Shown piece by piece: positions 26,442-64,000 of a stretch of DNA of 64,000 bases. The notes below the pieces were generated by a model that did no database searches, had not been told where the DNA came from, and saw only the letters and a program-made list of their open reading frames with translations. Source of the DNA: Ilex aquifolium (taxonomy: Eukaryota > Streptophyta > Magnoliopsida > Aquifoliales > Aquifoliaceae); assembly GCA_951799425.1 (NCBI GenBank), contig OX637391.1, positions 21,562,551 through 21,626,550 of the forward strand, written 5' to 3'. A program made the translations under genes and the position numbers. The stretch's first letter is position 1, and the number at the start of each line of letters is the position of its first letter.

Positions 26442-26600
26442 TGATGATGCACAAAATAGTATTATGCAAGATCAACAGTCGAGTGTGTGATAAAGTGTAA
26501 TTAATGGACAATTAATAGAGCAATCAATGACAATAATGTAAATATCGGGTCAATACGCAGATATATAATGGTTCGGTCAACACGCAGATATCCATTTATT
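26442..26600 (-). repeat. Fragment of a Tat-type LTR
   Basis: The 3' end of an LTR in minus orientation. It matches the end of the Tat-L LTR (60958 onwards), sharing GATGATGCACAAA, GCAAGATCAACAGTCGAGT, GTAATTAATGGACAAT and AGCAATCAATGACA in the same order. The match fades near 26600; the U3 part is missing. Confidence 0.8.
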
Positions 26601-51706: not shown

Positions 51707-52613
51707 ACAAGAAAATTGATGATCCTTCTTGTAGAAGACCGATAATGGGTATCGGTGGCTATTTGAAAAATATGAATATGAAAAATGAAGATATGAAAAA
51801 TAAGATATGAAAAAGAATGATTACAGTTTGAATCAATATACAACAGAAACGTTAACTGCCAAATATATTTTTGTAATCTTTTTAAAATTCAAATGATTAA
51901 TTGCCCATTAAAATAGGAAACCACTCAGTCAATAAAAACAAAATCAAAAAAAGAAAAGAAGGAAACTACTAGATATTGCATAAAATAAGTAAAGACATTT
52001 AGGTACTACTAAAATTTTAAAAATTGAAAAAATGTACTTAGCCACCAATTGTTTTATAAAATGATACTTACTAACTTAAAAGTTTGGGCGATAGAATTTT
52101 CCAGGAATTTTTTCAAAAAAATATACCTCCCCACAAATTTCCCCCCCTTTTTTTTTGTCTAAGTAACATAGCTTATAACCAAAGAAAGTAGTCAATCTTC
52201 CTACTTTAACGATTAAGATCTCATTTCTTTCTCTACGTTTGAGGGCAGGATGATAGGGTGGTGGGTTGGATTATGGTATTGAAAAGTAATTTTTTTGATA
52301 TTACATATTTTTATTATGTTTAATTATAAAATAGCGCGTGTTATGTTTTATAGTTATAATATTTTCTTTGATACCACTGTTTACAAATAACTCAAATTAA
52401 GGCCGTGGGTCGAAAATTATTTTTTCATATTGATGTAGATCGTATAATAGTACAATACTTGAATCGATGGGATCGATGTCGAGGTGGTTCGGACCGGTCA
52501 AATGGGTTGATTTTTTCAGAGGCACTTTCACATACATGGGTTTCTAAACACCTATGTCAAGTCAGAAACGGCGGGACAAAATGAACTCATAGCACCCCTA
52601 ACAAGGGATGCAA

Positions 52614-53151
52614 TGACCCAGGGCAGATTCCAGACAAATTCCTTCTTTTAGAGCCTGAAAAGGGCGTTTTTGCCGTTTTTGGTAATAATTTGTAGTTGAA
52701 TAACATTACCGTCTAAAGTTAGAATTGATCACCGTTGGTTCAGCCTTAATCCGGGTGAATAGTAGTTTTTAGTAGTATAATTAGTTTGGAAATTTCTTTT
52801 ATTTGGCAAAATCTGTATTAATGGCCTAATTACGTAATTAACGATAATTAGGTTACGTTTGGTTATTTCCTAATTAGTTTTAGGCTTTCATCACTATTTA
52901 TACCCTTATAAGCCTTAGGGCTAAGTAGTTGTTGATTGATTTATACAATTGAGAGTTTATTTCTTTTCTTCCCAATTCTTCTGGTATTCTTTGTGAATCA
53001 ACAGATCAATTGAAGCCTTTAGGTTGGTATTCTTTGTGAATCAACAGCTCTAGAGTAAGATTCTAATCCGGTATTTGTGTGCAAATCAACGGTTTAGTTT
53101 CACTATCCCCTTTCATTCATTATCCATCCTTATTTTACCCGCTTCCCTGCA
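52614..53151 (+). repeat. LTR1 of array J
   Basis: 538 bp, TGACCCAGGGCAGATT to CGCTTCCCTGCA. A degenerate PBS (TGGTATTATAGC) lies at 53157-53168. Confidence 0.88.
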
Positions 53152-53188
53152 TTAGTTGGTATTATAGCCAGGTTACGTTCTTGTCACC

Positions 53189-54200
53189 ATGCTGCCTAGA
53201 AGAAGACTTGTGGAGGATATCTATGAACTCGAGTCCAATGCGAGATACGTGAGAATGCAACAACAATTTGAATCGCTAGCCCAATAGTTGGCAGCCCTGA
53301 CTGCCTTTGTTCAACAACAAGCACAACCGCAACAACAACCCCATAATCCATGATGGGTGGAGGAGGAAACAGAGAGTTTGGTGGACGATGATGACAATCC
53401 ATTCGCTAGGTATCCACCCAGAGGTAGGGAGAGACGAGCCACCATGCCAGAGACCGATGCCCGACGATGGGAGTTTGGAATGACGATTGAACTGCTGGAT
53501 TTCCAAGGCAATCTACAACCTGAAGAATTCCATGATTGAGTTTATGCTGTTGAGGAAGTTTTGGAGTTTAAACAAGTGCCTGAGAATAAGAAAGTTCCAT
53601 TGGTGGCAATGAGATTTCGCGGAGGAACCGTTGTGTGGTGGTAGCACTCTAAGAAAACTAGTCAAATGCAAGGGAAGAAGAAGATAGACACGTGAGACAA
53701 ACTAAAGAAGCATATGCGAGAGGCCTTTCTACCCCATAATTACACGCGAGCTATGTATCAAAGTTTGCAGAATCTACCGCAAGGTCATTGTTTCGTGAAT
53801 GAATATACTACTGTATTTTATCAATTATTTGTATGCAATGATCTGACTGAGACGGAGGACCAATTGGTTTCCTGTTATAGTGGAGGCTTGCGACCCCAAA
53901 TTCAGGATACCTTGAACCTGTTTGACCCCTACTCCATTTCTGAGGCCTTTCAGCGGGCCATTCAATTAGGGAAACAGTTGAGTCGGAGAGTTGGGGAAAA
54001 CAGTAACTGGCCTGGGAGTATTGGTTATGGTATGGGAGGAGACAACTTGGCACCTCCTAATCGTGAAGTGCCAAGTTGTCCATAAATATGAAGTGTTTCA
54101 AGTGTGACGAAAAGGGCCATCGGATGACGGACAGCAGGAAGGGGGACAAGCCTGGGAAGAACTTGTTCATGGAGGGAGAGGATGTCCAAGGGGGAACCCT
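53189..54200 (+). pseudogene. Gag of array J, first copy
   Basis: The frame starts at the ATG at 53189 (MLPRRRLVEDIYELES) and stays in one frame to 54085, broken by stops at 53285, 53351, 53537, about 53642 and about 53693. Most fit CAG-to-TAG, CGA-to-TGA or TGG-to-TGA. The gag core includes LLDFQGNLQPEEF and EEVLEFKQVPENKKVPLVAM. A knuckle at about 54090-54132 reads CFKCDEKGHRMTDS, with the last Cys replaced by Ser. Confidence 0.9.
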
Positions 54201-54353
54201 ATATAGAGTATGATGCGACTGAAGATGGCAATTGTCCAGAAGAATAGGTAGGAGGAGATGTGGGACCACTGTTAGTCGTTCAACGAGCATGCCTAGCCCC
54301 TTGAGTTGAGGAGGGGGAAGAGTGGTTAAAAAAAATAATATCTTTCATTCTAT

Positions 54354-54720
54354 TTGCACCATAGGCGGGAAAGTCTATCGCTAATTATTGATTCAGGCAA
54401 CTGTGAGAACGTGGTGACAGAGGATGTTGTCCATAAATTAGGGCTATCCACAGAGCATCACCCCAAACCTTACAAGTTGGCTTGGCTCAAGAAGAGCAAT
54501 GAGGTAACTATTTCTAAACGATGTTTAGTAACCTTCTCTATTGGGTCGAAGTATAGGGATAAGGTATGGTGCGATGTGATTACTATGGATGCGTGTCACC
54601 TCCTGCTGGGGATGCCATAACATTCTAATCAATTTGTCAGACACGATGGGAGGAAAAAAACTTACACTTTTATGTTTGATAATGTTAAAATTATCTTGCT
54701 GCCCAGTATGGATCTTTCCC
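54354..54720 (+). pseudogene. Protease of array J
   Basis: LIIDSGNCENVV carries the Asp-Ser-Gly active site, followed by HPKPYKLAWLKKSNEV and CDVITMDACHLLLGMP, as in chromovirus-type proteases. A stop at 54618 interrupts, with degraded homology after it. Confidence 0.88.
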
Positions 54721-54899
54721 CAAAACCATCAGCTAGGGAAACCTTTACTTTGTTGTCAATGACACAGTTCGAAGAGGAGATGTTGGTATGAAGAGGAGTT
54801 GTTGTGTTGGTTTGCAAGAAGTAGACTGGTGGAGTTTCTGTCCCTGAAACCCTTTTTAACCCCTGCTTGAGGAGTTTAAGGATGTGTTCCTAGACGATC

Positions 54900-55865
54900 T
54901 ACCAGATGAGCTACCACTATTGCATGATATTCAACATCAGATTGATTGGGTTCCCAAGGCTAATTTGTCGAACAAACCAAATTACCCTTAAGAAGCATGA
55001 GGAGCTTCGAAGGGAAGTAGAGGAGCTATTGGGCAAGGGGCATATTATGGAGAGTCATAGTCCTTGTGTAGTACAACATATTATGGAGAGTCCTAGTCCT
55101 TGTGTAGTACTGGCCTTGCTCACACCCAAGAAAGATGGTACATGGAGGATGTATATGGATAGCCAGGCAATTAATATGATCACTGTTCATTATAGGTTCC
55201 TAATTCCTAGATTGGAGGATTTGTTGGATCAGTTGAGTGGAGCTAAGGTTTTCACCAAAGTCGACCTAAAGAGTGGGTACCATTAGATCCGGATTCGACC
55301 CGGACATGAGTGGAAGACAACATTTAAGATGCGTGAGGGGTTGTATGAATGGCTTGTCATGCCATTTGGCCTTTCTAATGTTCCTAGTACGTTCATGAGT
55401 GTCATGAATGAGATCCTTCGTCCGTTCATTGGCAACTTTCTCGTCATTTATTTCGATGATATTCTTATCTATAGTGCCACTAAAGAGTTACATATTGAGC
55501 ATCTGTGGGAGGTCCTTTCAGTTTTACGACGAGAAAAGCTTTTCGGTTCCCTCAAGAAGTGTTCATTTATAACTGATAGTGTCTTGTTTTTGGGCTACAT
55601 GATCTCCAAGGATGGGATTTTAGTGGACCAGTCCAAGGTGCAGGCAATAACGCAGTGCCCACTACCTACCACACTATTTGAGGTACGTAGCTTTCATGGT
55701 CTTGTGTCCTTTTATCGGAGTTTCATTCCTCATTCACAATCATGACGCATATTACGAACTGTATGTGACATAAGAAGTTCAGTTGGACGGATAAAGCCAC
55801 ATAAGCTTTTTGCTTAATTAAGCAGAAGCTGACTACTGCTCCCGTTTTGATTTTACCAGATTTTG
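54900..55865 (+). pseudogene. Reverse transcriptase of array J
   Basis: RT motifs in order: [55 protein letters not shown] (catalytic FDD intact) and [15 protein letters not shown] 36-bp tandem duplication (55041-55076 and 55077-55112) adds 12 residues ([12 protein letters not shown] and [12 protein letters not shown]). A stop lies at 55287 (Q expected) and another at 55743. RNase H starts (FSWTDKAT) and then is cut by a deletion near 55865. Confidence 0.93.
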
Positions 55866-56597
55866 GCTTCGTGTGGGCGTAGTTTGTGGAGGCTGGCCAA
55901 CACGAAGTTGGAGTTTAATAGCCCCTATCATCCTCAGACTGATGGCCAGTCTAAAGTAATCAACTGTTCAGTGGGTAACTTATTGTGCAGTTTGGTGGGT
56001 GATCATGTGATGAGTTGGGATCAGAAGATCTATCAAGCAGAGTTTGCTTTTAATCGTTCGTTCATTCGTAGTACGGGTTTTAGACCTTTTCAGATCATTA
56101 TGGTGATAACCCAAGATCACCCCTTGATTTAATTCCAGTCCCTAATTTGAAGAAGGTCCATGGCAAATCTGAGGATTTCATTCAGCAGCTGAAGGAGGTG
56201 CACCAGTCTACTCATCATAAGCTTCTTGACTCCTTCTCCAAGTAGAAGAAGTCGCTGATAAGCACTGTCGTTTAGTGGAGTTCGAGGTTGGGGATTTTGT
56301 TTGGGCCATTCTTACTAAAGATCGATTCTTAGTTGGTGAATACGACAAGCTCTCAGCGCAAAAAATTGGACCACTGGAGATAGTGGAAAAAATAAACCTG
56401 AATGCCTATAGGTTGAAGCTTCCTAGTCACGTTCACACTTCAAATGTCTTCAATGTCAAACACCTTGTTCCTTATCGTGGAGATAACTCTGAACACGAGC
56501 TTGAGAATTTGAGGGTGAATTCTTCTGAAGATGGAAAGGATGATGCAGATCGTATAGTAGCACAATGAACTCATCGCACCTCTAACAAGGAATGCGA
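55866..56597 (+). pseudogene. Integrase 3' part and pol tail of array J
   Basis: After the deletion, which removed RNase H, the zinc-binding domain and the first catalytic residues, the sequence resumes at KLEFNSPYHPQTDGQSKV and ICSVGNLL-type motifs, carrying the last part of the core. The C-terminal part (56275-56568) is open: VGDFVWAILTKDRF, KLPSHVHTSNVFNVKHLVPY. Compared with 52430-52613, about 130 bp are missing after the final DADRIVAQ. Confidence 0.9.
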
Positions 56598-57135
56598 TAA
56601 CCTAGTGCGGATTTTGGAAAAATTCCTTCATTTAGGGCCTGAAAATGGCGTTTTTGCCATTTTTGACAATATTTTGTAGTTGAATAACTTCACTGTCTAA
56701 ATGTAGAATTGATCACCGTCAATTCTGCCTTATTCTGGGTGATTAGTAGTTTTTAGCAGTATAATTAGTTTGGAAATTTTCTTTTTTTGATAAAATTTGT
56801 ATTAATGGCCTAATTACGTAATTAACGATAATTAGGTCACATTTTGTTATATCCAATTTAGTTTTAGGGTTTCAGCACTATTTATACCCTTATAAGCCTT
56901 AGGGCTAAGCAGTTTTTGATTGATTAACACAATTGAGAGTTTGTCTCTTTTCTTCCCAATTCTTCTGGTATTCTTTGTAAATCAACAGATCAATTGAAAA
57001 ATTTAGGCTGGTATTCTTTGTGAATCAACAACTCTAGAGTAGGATTCTAATTCGGTATTTGTGCGCAAATCAACTGTTTAGTTTCACTATCCCTATTCAT
57101 TCATTATCCACCCATATTATACCCGCTTCCCTGCA
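56598..57135 (+). repeat. LTR2 of array J
   Basis: 538 bp, TAACCTAGTGCGGATT to CGCTTCCCTGCA, followed by TCAGT and the PBS TGGTATCAGGGC (57141-57152). Confidence 0.88.
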
Positions 57136-57172
57136 TCAGTTGGTATCAGGGCCAAGTTACGTTCTTGTCATC

Positions 57173-57596
57173 ATGCCTCTTAGAAGAAGACATGTGGAGG
57201 ATATCTATGAAGCTGAGTCCAACGCGAGAGACACGAGAATGCAACAACAATTTGATTCGCGAGCCCAACAGTTGGAAGCCTTGACTACCTTTGTTCAACA
57301 AGCACAATCGCATCAATAACCCCATAATCCACGATAGGTGGAGGAGGAAACAAAGAGTTAATTTGGTGGATGATGATGACAATCATTTCGCTAGGTATCC
57401 ACCCAGAGGTATGAAGAGACGAACCACCAAGCCAAAGACCGATTCCCAGCGATGGGAGTCTGGATTGAAGATTCAATTGCTGGATTTCCAAGGTAGTCTA
57501 CAACCTAAAGAATTCCTTGATTGGGTTTATGCTGTTGAGGAAGTTTTGGAGTTCAAAGAAGTATCTAAGAATAAGAAAGTTCCATTGGTGGCGCGA
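57173..57596 (+). pseudogene. Truncated second gag of array J
   Basis: The same gag start (MPLRRRHVEDIYEAESNARD) continues to KKVPLVA and then breaks at 57592, directly into LTR3. Stops at 57316 and about 57334 and a frame change near 57350 are present. The break falls at the same gag codon where copy one reads VPLVAMRF, so everything from mid-gag to the next LTR was deleted. Confidence 0.9.
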
Positions 57597-58129
57597 TGAC
57601 CTAGGGCGGATTTCGGGCAAATTCTTTCGTTTAGTGCCTGAAAAGGGTGTTTTTGCCATATTTGATAATATTTTGTAATTGAATTACTTCACCGTCAAAA
57701 GTCAGAATTGATCGCCGTCAGTTCTACCTTAATTCGGGTGATTAGTAGTTTTTAGAAGTATAATTATTTTGAAAATTTTCTTTTTTGGAAAAATCTATAT
57801 TAATGGCCTAATTACGTAATTAACGATAATTAGGTCACGTTTGGTTATTTCCTAATTAGTTTTAGGGTTTAAGCACTATTTATACCCTTGTAAGCCTTAG
57901 GGCTAAACAGTTTTTAATTGATTAATACAATTGAGAGTTTGTCTCTTTTCTCCCCAATTCTTCTGGTATTCTTTGTGAATAGGTCAATTGAAGCCTTTAG
58001 ACTGGTTTTCTTTGTGAATCAACAGCTCTAGAGTAGGATTCTAATCCGGTATTTGTGTGCAAATCAGCAATTTAGTTTCACTATCCCTTTTCTTTCATTA
58101 TCCACCCTTATTATACCCGCTTCCCTGTA
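57597..58129 (+). repeat. LTR3 of array J
   Basis: 533 bp, TGACCTAGGGCGGATT to CGCTTCCCTGTA. It matches LTR1 and LTR2 along its length. Confidence 0.88.
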
Positions 58130-58436
58130 TCACATGTAGTACTTAAAAATTAAATTCCCTACCATAGCCTTATTCTAAGTTGGTCCAAGGATGAGTACAC
58201 GGACAAAGGGAAGTAATATACTCACATTTGGCTATATTTTTTTCCTGTAATACTAATTTTTTAAAATTAGTTAGCCATGGAGTAAAATTTAACTCCATTT
58301 TACTCATTTTGTCAACTTTGCTCATCCAGCTTAGTTATGTTCATCATGTTCAACTCAACTTTGTTTAGCTCTTTATTTCAATCTAATCCTGCCCACTAAA
58401 AAATGTTCAAATGCTCTTTACTTCAATCTACTTAGG

Positions 58437-58915: not shown

Positions 58916-59062
58916 TTGAGCTTGAAAAGCTCTTTTCATGAACTGAAAGGCTCATCATTTGTTTATGACTTGAAGAACTCATCTTATATTTATGAGCTAA
59001 AGCGCTCATCGTTTATTTGTGAGCTTTGAAACTCATCCTTTATTTATGAGCTGAAGAGCTTA
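58916..59062. repeat. About 30-bp tandem repeat at the integrase end of Tat K
   Basis: Four to five units of the form TTTATGAGCTNAAGNGCTCATC are joined to the 3' end of the integrase coding region. Each contains a small inverted repeat of GAGC and GCTC. Confidence 0.75.
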
Positions 59063-60030
59063 CCCTTGTGACCATGTACGAGCCTTCCCAGTTGGGTCCC
59101 AGCTTCCCATGTGTAGGGTCCTTCCTAGCCAGGAGGAGCTTCTTTAGGACAATATCTCCTACTTTGAAGCTTCTTTGCTTAACCCTCCTGTTGTAGTACC
59201 GTGCTCTCTTCCTCTGATAATCTGCAATGCATTACAAGGAGCTATTCCTCTTCTCATCTAACAGGCCGATACTAACGAGTAACAATCTGTCATTTCATTT
59301 TGGATCGCGAGTTCTATCCTTGGAGATAGAGCGCTTATTTTGATAGGAACCACTGCCTCAGTGCCATAGGTAAGAGCAAAAAGCATCACGTTCATGACTA
59401 TAGGCCCATAATATCCCTAGAAAATGCTCTACCCATTGGCTCTTTGAAGCTTCGTGTTTGGTTTTTAGAGCTGCTTTGATAGTTTAGATGGTGACTTCCG
59501 CTTGCTGGTTGGACTGTAAATGGGTTGTTGCAGAGAAATAGTTCTTTATACCAAGCTCGGCACAAAACCCTTTGAATGTCAAATTCTCGAATTGCCTCCC
59601 ATTGTCTGAGACGAGGGCCTTTGGAATCCTAAACCTATAAATTATAGATTTCCAAACAAAGTTTCAGATTTTCTACTTTATGATCCTCGCAACAGGCTCC
59701 ACCTCGGCCTACTTAGTGAAATAATTGACCCTAATTATGACAAACTTGCATTGCACTGTGCTAATTGGGAGTGGTCCAAGTATATCCAATCCCTATTGCC
59801 AGAAAGGCCAAGGGCTTACCACCGTGGTGAGCAACTTTGCCAGACAGTACGTGATGTTTGCATGGAATTGATAGACCTTGCATTTCTTGGCTAGCTCCCT
59901 TACGTCCTTGACTATTGTAGGCCACCAATAACCATGCCTCAGTACCCTGTAGGCTAAGGTTCCAGCTCTGAGGTGGTTTCCACAAATGCCCTCATGAATA
60001 TCCCTTAGGATATAGTTTGATTCGTCTTCT
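59063..60030 (-). pseudogene. Integrase of Tat K
   Basis: The H2C2 region reads DIHEGICGNHLRAGTLAYRV then HGYWWPTIVKDV. The core start reads GLDILGPLP, with VNYFTK following, and PKALVSDNGRQFENLTF carries a catalytic Asp. The C-terminal end is GDIVLKKLLLARKDP then KLGPNWEG. Several stops interrupt the frame (for example TGG to TAG near 59795 and 59715). Catalysis is not possible from this copy. Confidence 0.88.
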
Positions 60031-60329
60031 CTGATGCACCCCAGGAGAGGTGAAGAGAAGCCTCCTTATACAACTTCCCTTAGATGAGGGTGAATTTGGA
60101 TGACCTAGTTCTTAACTTCGCTTTTTTTTTAGAACTACAGGTAGAGTTCCATTTTGTGAATAACCTAGGATTGGGTCCATCTAGATCAGTTGTGTGCTAA
60201 CGGGGAGAACTTCTTCTGGTTCAGAACTTACTGAAGGCTTAGTTAGGTGTTCAATTGGGATAAATTAGTCTAGAATTTCTTGGGAAGCGGTGGCTAGCTT
60301 GGTTAGAGCATCTGCCTAGGAATTCTCTA

Positions 60330-60957
60330 CTCAAGAATTTGTATGATCTCCTCGATCTACCTTACCACCAGTTGTGAGTCACTATGTATTATGAGCTATT
60401 CTACTTCCATAGAATGAGCTAAATTGAGTACGAAAATCATTGTTTCATACTCTACTTCGTTGTTTGAAGCCTTAAAGTTGAACTTGAGGGCGTACTCCAA
60501 GTCTATTTCATCTGGTGAGGTCAGTTTCAATCCAGCTCTGCTACCTTGTGCGGTAGAAGACCTGTCAATCAAGAGTTTTCATGTCAGGAGGTCGGGGACG
60601 AGGTGGGTTGAGTCATGAGGCGCCTCATGTCATGCGGGAATGGTGAATTCTACAATAAAATTGGCTAAAACCTGCCCCTTAATGGTGTTTCTGGGCTTAT
60701 ATTTTATGTCAAACTTGTTGAGCTCGATTGTCCATTTTACTAATCTTCTTGACGACTCGGGCTTGTGTAAGATTTGCTTCATTGGTTGATCCATGGGGAT
60801 CTCTGTCTTATGAGCTTGGAAATAAGGCATGAGCTTTATCGTTGCTGTTACTAGGGCTAGAACTAGCTTCTCTATCTTTAGGTACGCCTACTCTGCCTCC
60901 CTCAGAGTTCTGTTGCAGTAATAGACTAGCTGCTGAGCTTTGTCTTGTTCCATTTGA
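60330..60957 (-). pseudogene. RNase H and archaeal-type RNase H of Tat K
   Basis: The element RNase H tail reads KIEKLVLALVTATIKLMPYF, LHKPESSRRLVKWTIELN and KGQVLANFIVEF. After a short gap a second domain reads WKLLIDRSSTAQGSRAGL and FKASNNEVEYETMI, the archaeal-type RNase H found in Tat elements; its usual Asp-Gly is Asp-Arg here. Stops occur between and within the domains. The 5' side is cut by Tat L at 60957. Confidence 0.88.
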
Positions 60958-61547
60958 TGATGCACAAATTGGTCTCGTGCAAGATCAACAGTCGAGTATG
61001 TGAAGATGTGTAATTAATGGACAATACATAAAGCAATCAATGACAGTAATGTAAATATTAAGTCAACACACAAATATATAGTGGTTTGATCCGGGTGACC
61101 TACTCCACTCTCGAAAACGGCAACGGTGGCCGTGACTCTTTATTGATGAATATAGTAAAAGAGAGAAATGGCTCCGAGAGAGGTGTGCTCCGAGAAAGGT
61201 ACAATAGCTAGGAGAGAGAAGCTATGTGTAGAGAGGTGTAGTGAGTTACCAAGGTGTGTCCTCTCATGTGGAGAGGGCTTACAATTTATAGGTATGGAGA
61301 GGCGGTGACGTGAAGGAGAGGGCACTACTTCTTTGGGGAGGATAGTTACAAATGGTAAGTACAATTAATGTAGGATTGATCTTCCTGAGTGCGTATTCCG
61401 ATAACCTCTCTCCCATGTGCTCTTATCCATTTGAGCTCCTTGGATCTTGGACTGGGTCGGATTGATAAAGTGGGCTTGGGCTGTCTTTTAGCTGACTTGG
61501 GCTTGGTTGATTTATTGGGCCTGACCCAGTTGGTTTTGGGCTCATCA
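60958..61547 (-). repeat. 3' LTR of Tat L (590 bp)
   Basis: On the minus strand it starts TGATGAGCCC and ends TTTGTGCATCA. It has a TATA box (61291-61284, CTATAAATTG context) and a polyadenylation signal AATAAA (61144-61139). Its 3' third recurs at 26442-26600. Flanking words tttga (60953-60957) and tttgg (61548-61552) are similar, but the second is part of the PPT. Confidence 0.82.
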
Positions 61548-61567
61548 TTTGGCCCCCATGCCCCAAG
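61548..61567 (-). other. Polypurine tract of Tat L
   Basis: The minus strand reads CTTGGGGCATGGGGGCCAAA directly before the LTR start TGATGAG. Confidence 0.65.
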
Positions 61568-61805
61568 CCTTCGACTGTTTGCGAGAGAATGGGGTTAAGG
61601 GCATGATCTTCTTCTTCACTTGGATGAGCAGAAGTTTTCTTGTTCTCCATGGCGAGGCTTCTCCTAGAAGCCATTCTCTTTTCCTTGGGAGCTTCTTCTA
61701 GAAGCCCTTCTTTTTTCCTTATAAGCTTCTTCTAGAGGCCATTTTCTTCAAATCTTCTCTTCCCTAAACCAGAGCAAGATTATAAAAAATAGGAGCTCGA
61801 AGGAG

Positions 61806-62260
61806 GTGAGCGTGGGTGGCGCCCAAGGTGGAGAGGGCGAGACCCATGGCTTAGGCGGTGCCAAGGGAGGTGCCCAAGGTGGAGGGGGCGAGACCCAAGG
61901 CTCGGTCAACAATGTTGTAGGCGCCCATGGTAGAGGGGGCGAGACCCATCGTCTAGGTGGCATCATGGGAGGCGCCCAAGGTGGAGAGGGTGACACCCAA
62001 GCCTCATTCGGCGCCATTGGAGGTGCCCAAGGTAGAGGGGGCAGCGCCCAGGTCTTGGCCAGTGCCTGATGTGGAGAGGGCAGCACCCATGCTTCATTCG
62101 GTTCCATGGGAGGCGCCCAAGGTGGAGGGGGCGACGCCTACGCCTTATTCATCTCCATTGGAGGTACCCAAGGTGGAGAGGGCGGCGCCCAAGACCCGAG
62201 TGGCACCATAGGAGGTGTCCAAGGCGGAGAGTGCGGCGCTGGCGGTTCCTTAGGCACTCG
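61806..62260. repeat. 51-bp minisatellite, open in both directions
   Basis: About nine units of 48-54 bp, core GGAGGCGCCCAAGGTGGAG. The plus strand encodes a 17-residue Gly-rich repeat (GGAQGGEGETHGLGGAK type) with one stop at 62067; the minus strand is open from 62107 to 61748 as a Pro/Trp-rich repeat (PWAPPxxPxxAWVSPSP). Confidence 0.88.
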
Positions 62261-64000
62261 GGGTGATGGCTTTGACGACAAAAGGGGAGATGAGGTGTTA
62301 GGCGATCCCCTGAAGCATGTGGGTAAACCCAGCGGTACCTTTGGACGCCTGGGTTACGCGAGGAAGTGGCTAGACAGATATTTGAACATACCGAGTTCTC
62401 GAGGTATGTTATCTAGTGCTCATATTTAACCCTTTGTTGGCATGGGTATTTTCTTAGTACTGGCTTGATTTTGTTTAGGCAGGCGCCCATTCTGACGAGC
62501 GGGAGACTACTCAGGACATCGAGCGGGGCGTGGAGAGTGCTGGAGATAGTGGCTCAAAGGTAGCCTCAATATTTAGCTCCAATGATTGTGACAAGGACAT
62601 GGCTGGTATAGTGTCTTCGTACCACATTCCTCCCATTGTAATGTGTCGTCGCGCGGAGGGGGACGAGTCAGCGTGTTGTCACTCTTCCGGCGAGATTGTC
62701 CTTTATGAGGATATCCTGGAAGCGGGCTTGACGCTCCCAATCCCTAGGCCCATATGTCGAGTTCTGGGGCATCTGTCGTTGGCTTCTGGGAGACTAGTTC
62801 CCAACGGGTGGAGGATGATTCTGGCGTTCTTCTCATTATGGCGGCTGGTTCACAGTGCTGACGTCCCTCCCCCTTCGAGGAGTTCTTGGCCACTTATGTG
62901 CTAGTGGAAAATCCCACTCCTCATCAGGGGTGGTACCGCTTTGCTCCGAGGTTAGGTAAGTTCATTACTGGGCTTCCTTCGAATTGTCATAGCTGGAAGG
63001 CTAAGTTCTTCTTTGTTGGAGGCGAGTGGGCCACCGAGAGTGATCGTGACCTAGTGCCTTCAAGGTAGGACACTACTCCCAAGACCAAGATAGGTAAGGA
63101 CTCCACTTTTGGTTTTACTTTTAGTTGTCACATATTCGTTTTTACTATGCAATTGGCTTCTTTTGCAGCTTCATCGGCATTGTCCTCGGAGCAAGAGGGT
63201 AGACTCTAGATGGTGCGTGATTATCTGTTCAAGGAGTTCTCAGGGATCATGTCTGCGTCGGGTCATTCCAAAGCTTCTTCCAAGCCGAAGAGGAAAGGTA
63301 TTTAATCTTTCCAAGGAGCTCTTTATGGTTACATCATTGTGGGCTTTTCATTTTACACCGATTCTGCAGGTACCTCTATTGACAGAGCGGTGGTGGAGGC
63401 TGCTTCCAGGGTGGCACCTTCTCCTTTTTCTTCTAAGAGGGCGAAGCCTGATACCCCCAATACTTCTCAATTGGGGTCCACTGGTTAGGCTAGTCACCGA
63501 GGGGGGAACTTGGTGATCCCCCCCTCCCGTTCTTCTCCGATTGATGTTCCTTCACCCCCTAGAGTTAGTCCCAGTACTGTAGTGGGGGCTGAGGCTCCGG
63601 TGTGGTCTCCTACTAGAACGGAGACTCCGCCTAGCCATCCTGCTTCGGGCAATATTTCAGTATCCATGTTGCAGGACGTGAAACTGGCCAAGGAATGGCT
63701 TTGGGGGTTTGTGACTCGTGCGGAGGTTGAGGAGGTTGCCTCTCGAGGTCCGGAGGGTATTGTTGATGCTGCCATGGAGGGCTTTGCTTTGGTATGTCCT
63801 GCATTTTTCTTTGGTTTTGTACTTGACTTTTCTCCTTTATACTCTGCTTTTTGACTTTCGAGTGCCTGCAGGTGGCTGCTACTTTTCCCTGCTTGGTCTT
63901 GAGTACGTTGAAGATCAGGGAAGCTCTTGATGGTCACGCAGCGGAGAGGCAGACACACAAGGCTGTTGAAGAGAAGTTGGGGCTCGAGCGGCAGGCGTGG
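62106..64000 (+). pseudogene. Antisense spliced gene of Tat L (gypsy-type transposon domain plus coiled coil)
   Basis: Plus-strand exons can be read between GT-AG gaps: 62106-62403, 62483-63064, about 63169-63297, 63370-63791 and 63872 to the edge. Introns are 72-105 bp. Exon 2 carries a domain ending PNGWRMILAFFSLWRLVHSAD, FEEFLATYVLVENP, GWYRFAPRLGKFITGLPS and WKAKFFFVGGEW, which matches the plant putative gypsy type transposon domain (Pfam Transposase_28). Exons 4 and 5 read LAKEWLWGFVTRAEVEEVAS and TLKIREALDGHAAERQTHKA, a likely coiled coil. Lesions: a one-base frameshift in a C run near 62870, TAG near 63208 and TAG at 63486. The exon 2 to 3 joint does not keep phase. Function of these proteins is unknown. 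Confidence 0.7.

Follow-up and report, generated by a model that had tools for sequence, protein, structure and literature searches.

An antisense TRP28 gene with predicted introns in a putative pol-less derivative of a Retand-type retrotransposon family of Ilex aquifolium

Introduction

How a gene can keep introns inside an element that is copied through RNA is the question raised by the right-hand end of a 64,000-nucleotide stretch of Ilex aquifolium DNA (contig OX637391.1; hereafter the window). An earlier note, made from the letters alone, had described there a plus-strand, intron-containing gene with a transposon domain and a C-terminal coiled coil, beginning at 62106 and lying antisense in a Tat retrotransposon whose pol was placed beyond the window. 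It had also suggested that antisense polarity protects the introns.

The antisense arrangement itself is already published for Retand elements (PMC11963269, PMC7264820), although it had been offered in part as unsettled. Vicient 2025, a survey that sought elements by their reverse transcriptase (RT), reported that 97% of recently active Retand clusters have an antisense TRP28 (63 Retand clusters, five with TRP28 only in ORFs <600 nt), and further described tandem arrays in about half of Retand elements, a predicted DNA binding for TRP28, LTRs of 315-1,194 bp and interiors of 7,380-12,869 bp (PMC11963269). Neumann 2019 found Transposase_28 in 23% of Retand elements and, in the portion available, named introns for Ogre only (PMC6317226). 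For maize Grande, Vicient and Casacuberta 2020 described a nuclear antisense protein and an upstream promoter, and urged attention to antisense and spliced transcripts (PMC7264820). Ogre and EVADE are named as plant LTR elements with introns (PMC12786077), and HBZ of HTLV-1 is a spliced antisense retroviral gene (PMC12313066). The word "intron" has 0 occurrences in the available text of each of PMC11963269 and PMC7264820, and among the matches listed no introns in antisense Retand TRP28 genes are in print.

Results

Layout and insertion site of element L

The gene was found to lie antisense within an LTR-bounded element, here termed element L, as had been claimed. The 3′ LTR occupies 60955..61547 on the minus strand (593 bp, ends TGATGA...TCATCA), and the 5′ LTR, of 591 bp and in the same orientation, lies to the right of the window at L010:2857-3447 (window-equivalent 66857-67447). 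The two LTRs align over their whole length with 88.6% identity, gaps included, and differ at 39 of 577 sites (K2P 0.071). The five-base flanks, CCATT and CCCTT, match at four positions. With its LTR pair and this near target-site duplication (4/5 bases), L qualifies as a complete insertion. The interior measures 5,309 bp. On the minus strand, gag follows the 5′ LTR; there is no pol, and next come the antisense TRP28 gene, the tandem array and the 3′ LTR. The gag frames (minus strand, approximately L010:1237-2610) matched PF03732 at 16.1 bits, below the cut-off.

The pol of element L had been expected within about 4 kb to the right of position 64000. This expectation was rejected, since gag and no pol was found there. 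RT, RNase H, second RNase H and integrase probes taken from a neighboring element (K, below), which a very different pol could escape, gave no match in the 5,309-bp interior. The earlier note had made a minus-strand pol in the next kilobases the test of its reading. Taken literally, that test goes against the reading, as the element holds no such pol. The second LTR, the gag frames and the pol-bearing relatives described below nevertheless uphold the locus as a retroelement, one whose pol has been lost.

Just inward of the 3′ LTR lies a G-rich, polypurine-tract-like stretch (61548..61564, minus strand), which has pyrimidine interruptions and is suggestive only. Between the LTR and the array, a scan with three TATA forms gave a sole match, TATAAAA at 61781..61787 on the plus strand, which by its motif is a candidate promoter element of the antisense gene. 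The array (61814..62273, plus strand) is built of about nine units of 51 bp, one of them shortened to 39 bp. Six units were compared, setting aside the 39-bp one, that at 62070 and the divergent final one; variable columns numbered 10, 10 and 11, of 17 each, at the three codon positions. With no codon-position bias seen, a constrained protein encoded by the array was not supported. The start at 62106 sits within this array and is therefore unsupported as well.

The DNA on either side of the LTR pair belongs to one older minus-strand Tat-type pol, element K, indicating that L inserted into K. The left part of K lies at 59040..60954 (minus strand; integrase and RNase H, by PF17921 and PF17917), where its RNase H frame, with one stop, reaches the LTR edge (60954). 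RT and the beginning of RNase H make up the remainder, which follows directly past the 5′ LTR of L at L010:3448-3856, and the PF17919 and PF00078 matches in this right-hand part were both below cut-off. Further minus-strand gag-like frames at L010:7285-8082 (PF03732, 14.3 bits, below cut-off) are probably the gag of K. Just beyond the integrase end of K, where Retand elements often have arrays, is a 27-bp tandem array (58938-59067), at which tblastn within the window found no TRP28 remnant.

Two other retroelement remains were noted in the window. An isolated 137-bp LTR end from the family of element L (26442-26578; 84%) begins exactly at the LTR terminus. A compound plus-strand gypsy element at 52577-58132 holds three related repeats of approximately 540 bp (52610-53152, 56594-57138 and 57593-58132; 87-88% identical), with pol-like frames ahead of the second repeat and a gag-like frame between the second and third.

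The TRP28 gene in the window

The gene lies on the plus strand, antisense to the gag of element L. A profile search gave a match to TRP28 (Transposase_28, PF04195, profile positions 1-47 of 69) at 27.3 bits against a gathering cut-off of 26.2, a margin of only 1.1 bits. The score was 27.4 bits once the second domain part was joined by X. The part of exon 1 beyond the array (62274..62403) is followed on the same strand by exon 2 with the Transposase_28 domain (62483..63093), exon 3 with a basic end (63169..63297), exon 4 with a proline/serine-rich linker (63370..63791), to which a profile search matched no Pfam family, and the start of exon 5 (63872..64000), which continues past the window. Four GT-AG introns were predicted between these exons, at 62404-62482 (79 bp), 63094-63168 (75 bp), 63298-63369 (72 bp) and 63792-63871 (80 bp), all on the plus strand and all joining neighboring open frames in phase.

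With the 150 bases beyond the window included, the C-terminal end was predicted to form a single helix of 88 residues (93-residue model from a single sequence, mean pLDDT 91.5), which is compatible with the proposed coiled coil. The domain is broken across two frames near 62,870, and in-frame stops occur at 63066 in exon 2, 63207 in exon 3 and 63486 in exon 4, with another at 62067 in the array. The window copy of the TRP28 gene is a pseudogene. Of the earlier description, the domain and the predicted introns stand, in a copy whose broken state the note had missed. No second TRP28 copy was found inside the window by tblastn, the remaining matches all having E >= 0.93.

Related copies and the missing pol

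A search of the 800-Mb genome of the same plant gave at least 90 matches at E up to 0.001, a lower bound drawn from 40 scored of 1042 candidates. Two subfamilies were distinguished. Subfamily A, the window's kind, is 85-91% identical and was read at nine loci on eight contigs; subfamily B is about 80% identical to the window copy. The alignment holds 26 copies and the window (7 A, or 8 with the window, and 19 B) and leaves aside two shorter A loci, L028 (= L038) and L039, together with the other places of lower score. The 10-kb surroundings were read for 20 copies, 9 of A and 11 of B. Among the contigs of other genomes, 585 pattern stretches yielded no confirmed relative. The only locus from viral contigs (L001) was rejected as an outside relative; its match spans 13 residues and lies, judging by its ORFs, within a bacteriophage, these being presumably portal- and terminase-like.

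In subfamily A, element K probes found no pol between TRP28 and gag in any of the nine loci. Gag is present in seven of the nine (L037 and L039 are without it), and one pol-less junction is common to 7/9. At L038, weak RNase H and clearer integrase matches occur about 6 kb past its gag. In subfamily B, the same probes placed RT and RNase H on the minus strand, downstream of TRP28, in 7/11 loci, and a second RNase H (aRH, the probe being assigned by its motif) and integrase in 6 of these 7. Gag was in view beyond the pol region in 5/11, and in four B loci (L043, L044, L046 and L047) neither RT nor RNase H was seen on the minus strand where expected. Subfamily B has the order of a full Retand element, in which antisense TRP28 is followed, on the opposite strand, by integrase, RNase H, RT and gag. 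The position of the gene antisense to a Tat-type pol is therefore borne out in these relatives, not in L, and a Tat-type pol with a second RNase H is likewise present in B and lacking from L itself.

Three A loci have an LTR pair 6-7 kb apart, the second LTR being partial in one. In two of the A copies with both LTRs, other than L, the flanks were read and match in 4/5 bases each, and these near-matching flanks of their own mark L and the two copies as separate insertions. The four A elements with compared LTRs are old (divergence 0.071-0.097). As the A loci without pol have a junction in common and B loci carry pol, the best reading of subfamily A, from this comparison of loci, is a deletion derivative that lacked pol as it spread. 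It is very improbable that A was never a mobile family, its members arising by separate losses of pol or from one insertion spread by segmental duplication. The small number of A loci read (nine) and the age of the four elements with compared LTRs would suit such an origin; an identical junction in 7/9 loci, their distribution over eight contigs and the near-matching flanks particular to each of three elements would not.

Locus L039 differs from the other A loci in that its LTR pair encloses a short segment with no more of the TRP28 gene than its start (L039:62-2997, with TRP28 set on the plus strand); it may be a still smaller derivative or the product of a later deletion. Past the TRP28 gene, subfamily A also shows a multiplied repeat of approximately 118 bp (L010:164-751), a unit length that is not a multiple of three, and B loci show fewer and shorter matches to it.

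Selection on the reading frame

Sites at which A and B have different bases, each at >=75%, were counted as near-fixed differences by codon position in the 27 copies, skipping 62863-62877 around the frame break. Such differences occurred at 13/451, 11/453 and 39/453 sites of codon positions 1, 2 and 3, so that position 3 holds 39 of 63 (binomial p 3e-06). This gathering at the third position supports the exon frames as real coding sequence. The signal comes mostly from exon 2 (9, 9 and 29 at the three positions, its two parts E2a and E2b summed). Exon 1 gave 3, 1 and 4, weak when taken alone, and exons 3-5 gave 8 differences, 6 at position 3 (exon 3: 0, 0, 2; exon 4: 1, 1, 2; exon 5: 0, 0, 2). 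Change in the introns (13/289) was not significantly higher than at positions 1 and 2 (24/904; p 0.17), and gap lengths gave no coding signal, being divisible by three in 6/52 exon runs and 7/76 intron runs.

Within subfamily B, variability at positions 1, 2 and 3 was 0.137, 0.124 and 0.176 (introns 0.148). Within subfamily A it was 0.115, 0.098 and 0.114 (introns 0.084), without codon bias. From these substitution patterns, the TRP28 protein appears to be selected in the family and not visibly so within subfamily A. Given that no codon-position constraint is seen within A, retention of the gene there looks passive.

The same figures bear on a function of the antisense transcript itself, which Vicient and Casacuberta 2020 put forward as possible (PMC7264820). 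The transcript would pair with the genomic RNA and feed silencing or hinder packaging, and the protein would be secondary. Retention of the stretch in subfamily A, where the reading frame is unconstrained, is what such a function would predict. The excess of change at third positions, both between the subfamilies and inside B, points instead to selection on the protein in the family, and 97% of recently active Retand clusters retain TRP28 (PMC11963269). A primary role of the RNA is thus considered unlikely.

The four introns

The introns stand out by composition. Their GC content is 35-39%, against 50-62% in the exons; all 207 T-rich 75-bp windows (T >= 40%) overlap an intron, as do 602 of 2113 windows overall, and 193/194 of the 75-bp windows with GC <= 40% do so. 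When the intron set was shifted around the region, 9/1884 rotations matched its T content and none had all four stretches at 42% T. The best splice pair scored 13.5 on the plus strand and 3.1 on the minus strand, the genomic-RNA strand of L (introns of 65-150 bp), the latter being low also because A-rich stretches there score low.

Choices among rival donors and acceptors were decided from the frames. Donor 63065, which outscores 63094, was rejected as leaving the frame with exon 3, the pair 62956-63021 as cutting into exon 2, and acceptor 62478 as out of frame.

Counting an intron as kept when at least half its columns are filled in a spanning aligned copy, introns 1 to 4 were kept in 25/25, 27/27, 27/27 and 26/26 spanning copies. 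The majority dinucleotide at donors and acceptors was kept in 84-100% of copies (mean 0.909). As 100/274 other intron dinucleotides were kept at or above this value, no clear extra constraint falls on the splice sites.

That the T-rich stretches are not introns, and that separate open frames or an intronless gene have GT-AG pairs by chance, is accordingly to be weighed. Splice-site scores by themselves are weak, equally good sets of pairs occurring in 14/200 shuffles and 8/102 other strand-windows, and conservation of the splice dinucleotides does not clearly exceed that of other intron dinucleotides. Chance would, however, have to explain why all four pairs link adjacent frames in phase and coincide with all the T-rich windows, why change in exon 2 falls at third positions, and why the frames flanking each intron are those that link in phase. 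This explanation is held to be improbable, and splicing of the four introns is inferred.

Subfamilies A and B are about 20% apart, their copies include separate insertions, and the introns are kept in all spanning copies. Together these observations indicate that the introns of the antisense TRP28 gene have come through repeated rounds of copying via RNA. The polarity argument of the earlier note gains support accordingly, in that the introns are in every spanning copy and the genomic-RNA strand offers no comparable splice pair.

Discussion

The evidence makes it highly likely that element L is a non-autonomous gag and TRP28 derivative of a Retand-type family, its introns kept by antisense polarity, which spread with its relatives' enzymes. 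By its sequence L is classed as a derivative of that family and not as a complete member. The earlier observation is partly confirmed by these results, and the earlier interpretation partly supported.

The proposed course of events begins with a Retand-type family (Tat clade, Ty3/gypsy) as the source of L. Pol would have been lost once, and the derivative would then have spread using enzymes supplied in trans by pol-bearing relatives. An antisense message would start from a promoter between the LTR and the gene, for which the TATA-like box at 61781 is a candidate, and would be spliced at four small introns. Since the genomic RNA holds no more than their complement, copying would leave the introns in place. 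The predicted product has a TRP28 domain, a basic and proline/serine-rich linker and a long C-terminal helix, and would most likely be a nuclear DNA-associated regulator that tunes the element via DNA or chromatin. In the family the gene would be selected as a protein-coding, multi-exon gene on the strand opposite to the element's own, and in present-day subfamily A it would be carried along passively.

Retand elements as described in PMC11963269 resemble L in having an antisense TRP28 (PF04195) between the coding region and the 3′ LTR, with a tandem array there, and the LTRs of L (593 and 591 bp) fall inside their 315-1,194 bp range. Subfamily B shows their whole order, whereas L is without pol altogether and its interior of 5,309 bp lies below their 7,380-12,869 bp, a shortfall attributed to the missing pol. 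As that survey searched by RT, pol-less elements like L would go unfound by it. The gene of L also resembles maize Grande gene23, an antisense accessory gene of a Tat-clade element with an upstream promoter and a nuclear protein; this likeness is one of description (PMC7264820).

For introns kept by antisense polarity, HTLV-1 HBZ is a precedent by analogy, since it too is spliced and antisense inside a retroelement; it differs in that its protein is unrelated and its promoter lies in the 3′ LTR (PMC12313066). Ogre and EVADE share with L the presence of introns in plant LTR retrotransposons, but theirs lie on the genomic-RNA strand and those of L on the opposite one (PMC12786077, PMC6317226).

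Maize Zeon-1 (with Cinful-1) and rice Dasheng (with RIRE2) are likewise pol-less partners of Retand-type elements, and L resembles them as a non-autonomous derivative spreading alongside relatives that carry pol.

It is probable, at a lower level of confidence than the classification of L, that Retand families of this plant have an antisense TRP28 gene of several exons in two subfamilies some 20% apart, that its introns passed through RNA copying repeatedly since they are invisible on the genomic RNA, and that a derivative without pol spread with gag and this gene retained. If so, a survey based on RT and on counts of single open frames would overlook such elements and record too few of these genes. 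Almost all recently active Retand elements have an antisense TRP28 gene and, if these genes are multi-exon, their protein has so far been read incompletely. Persistence of introns through RNA copying would point to a processed message made from the antisense strand itself. The derivative without pol would provide a natural comparison of the TRP28 gene with and without pol, selected in the family and apparently not within the derivative.
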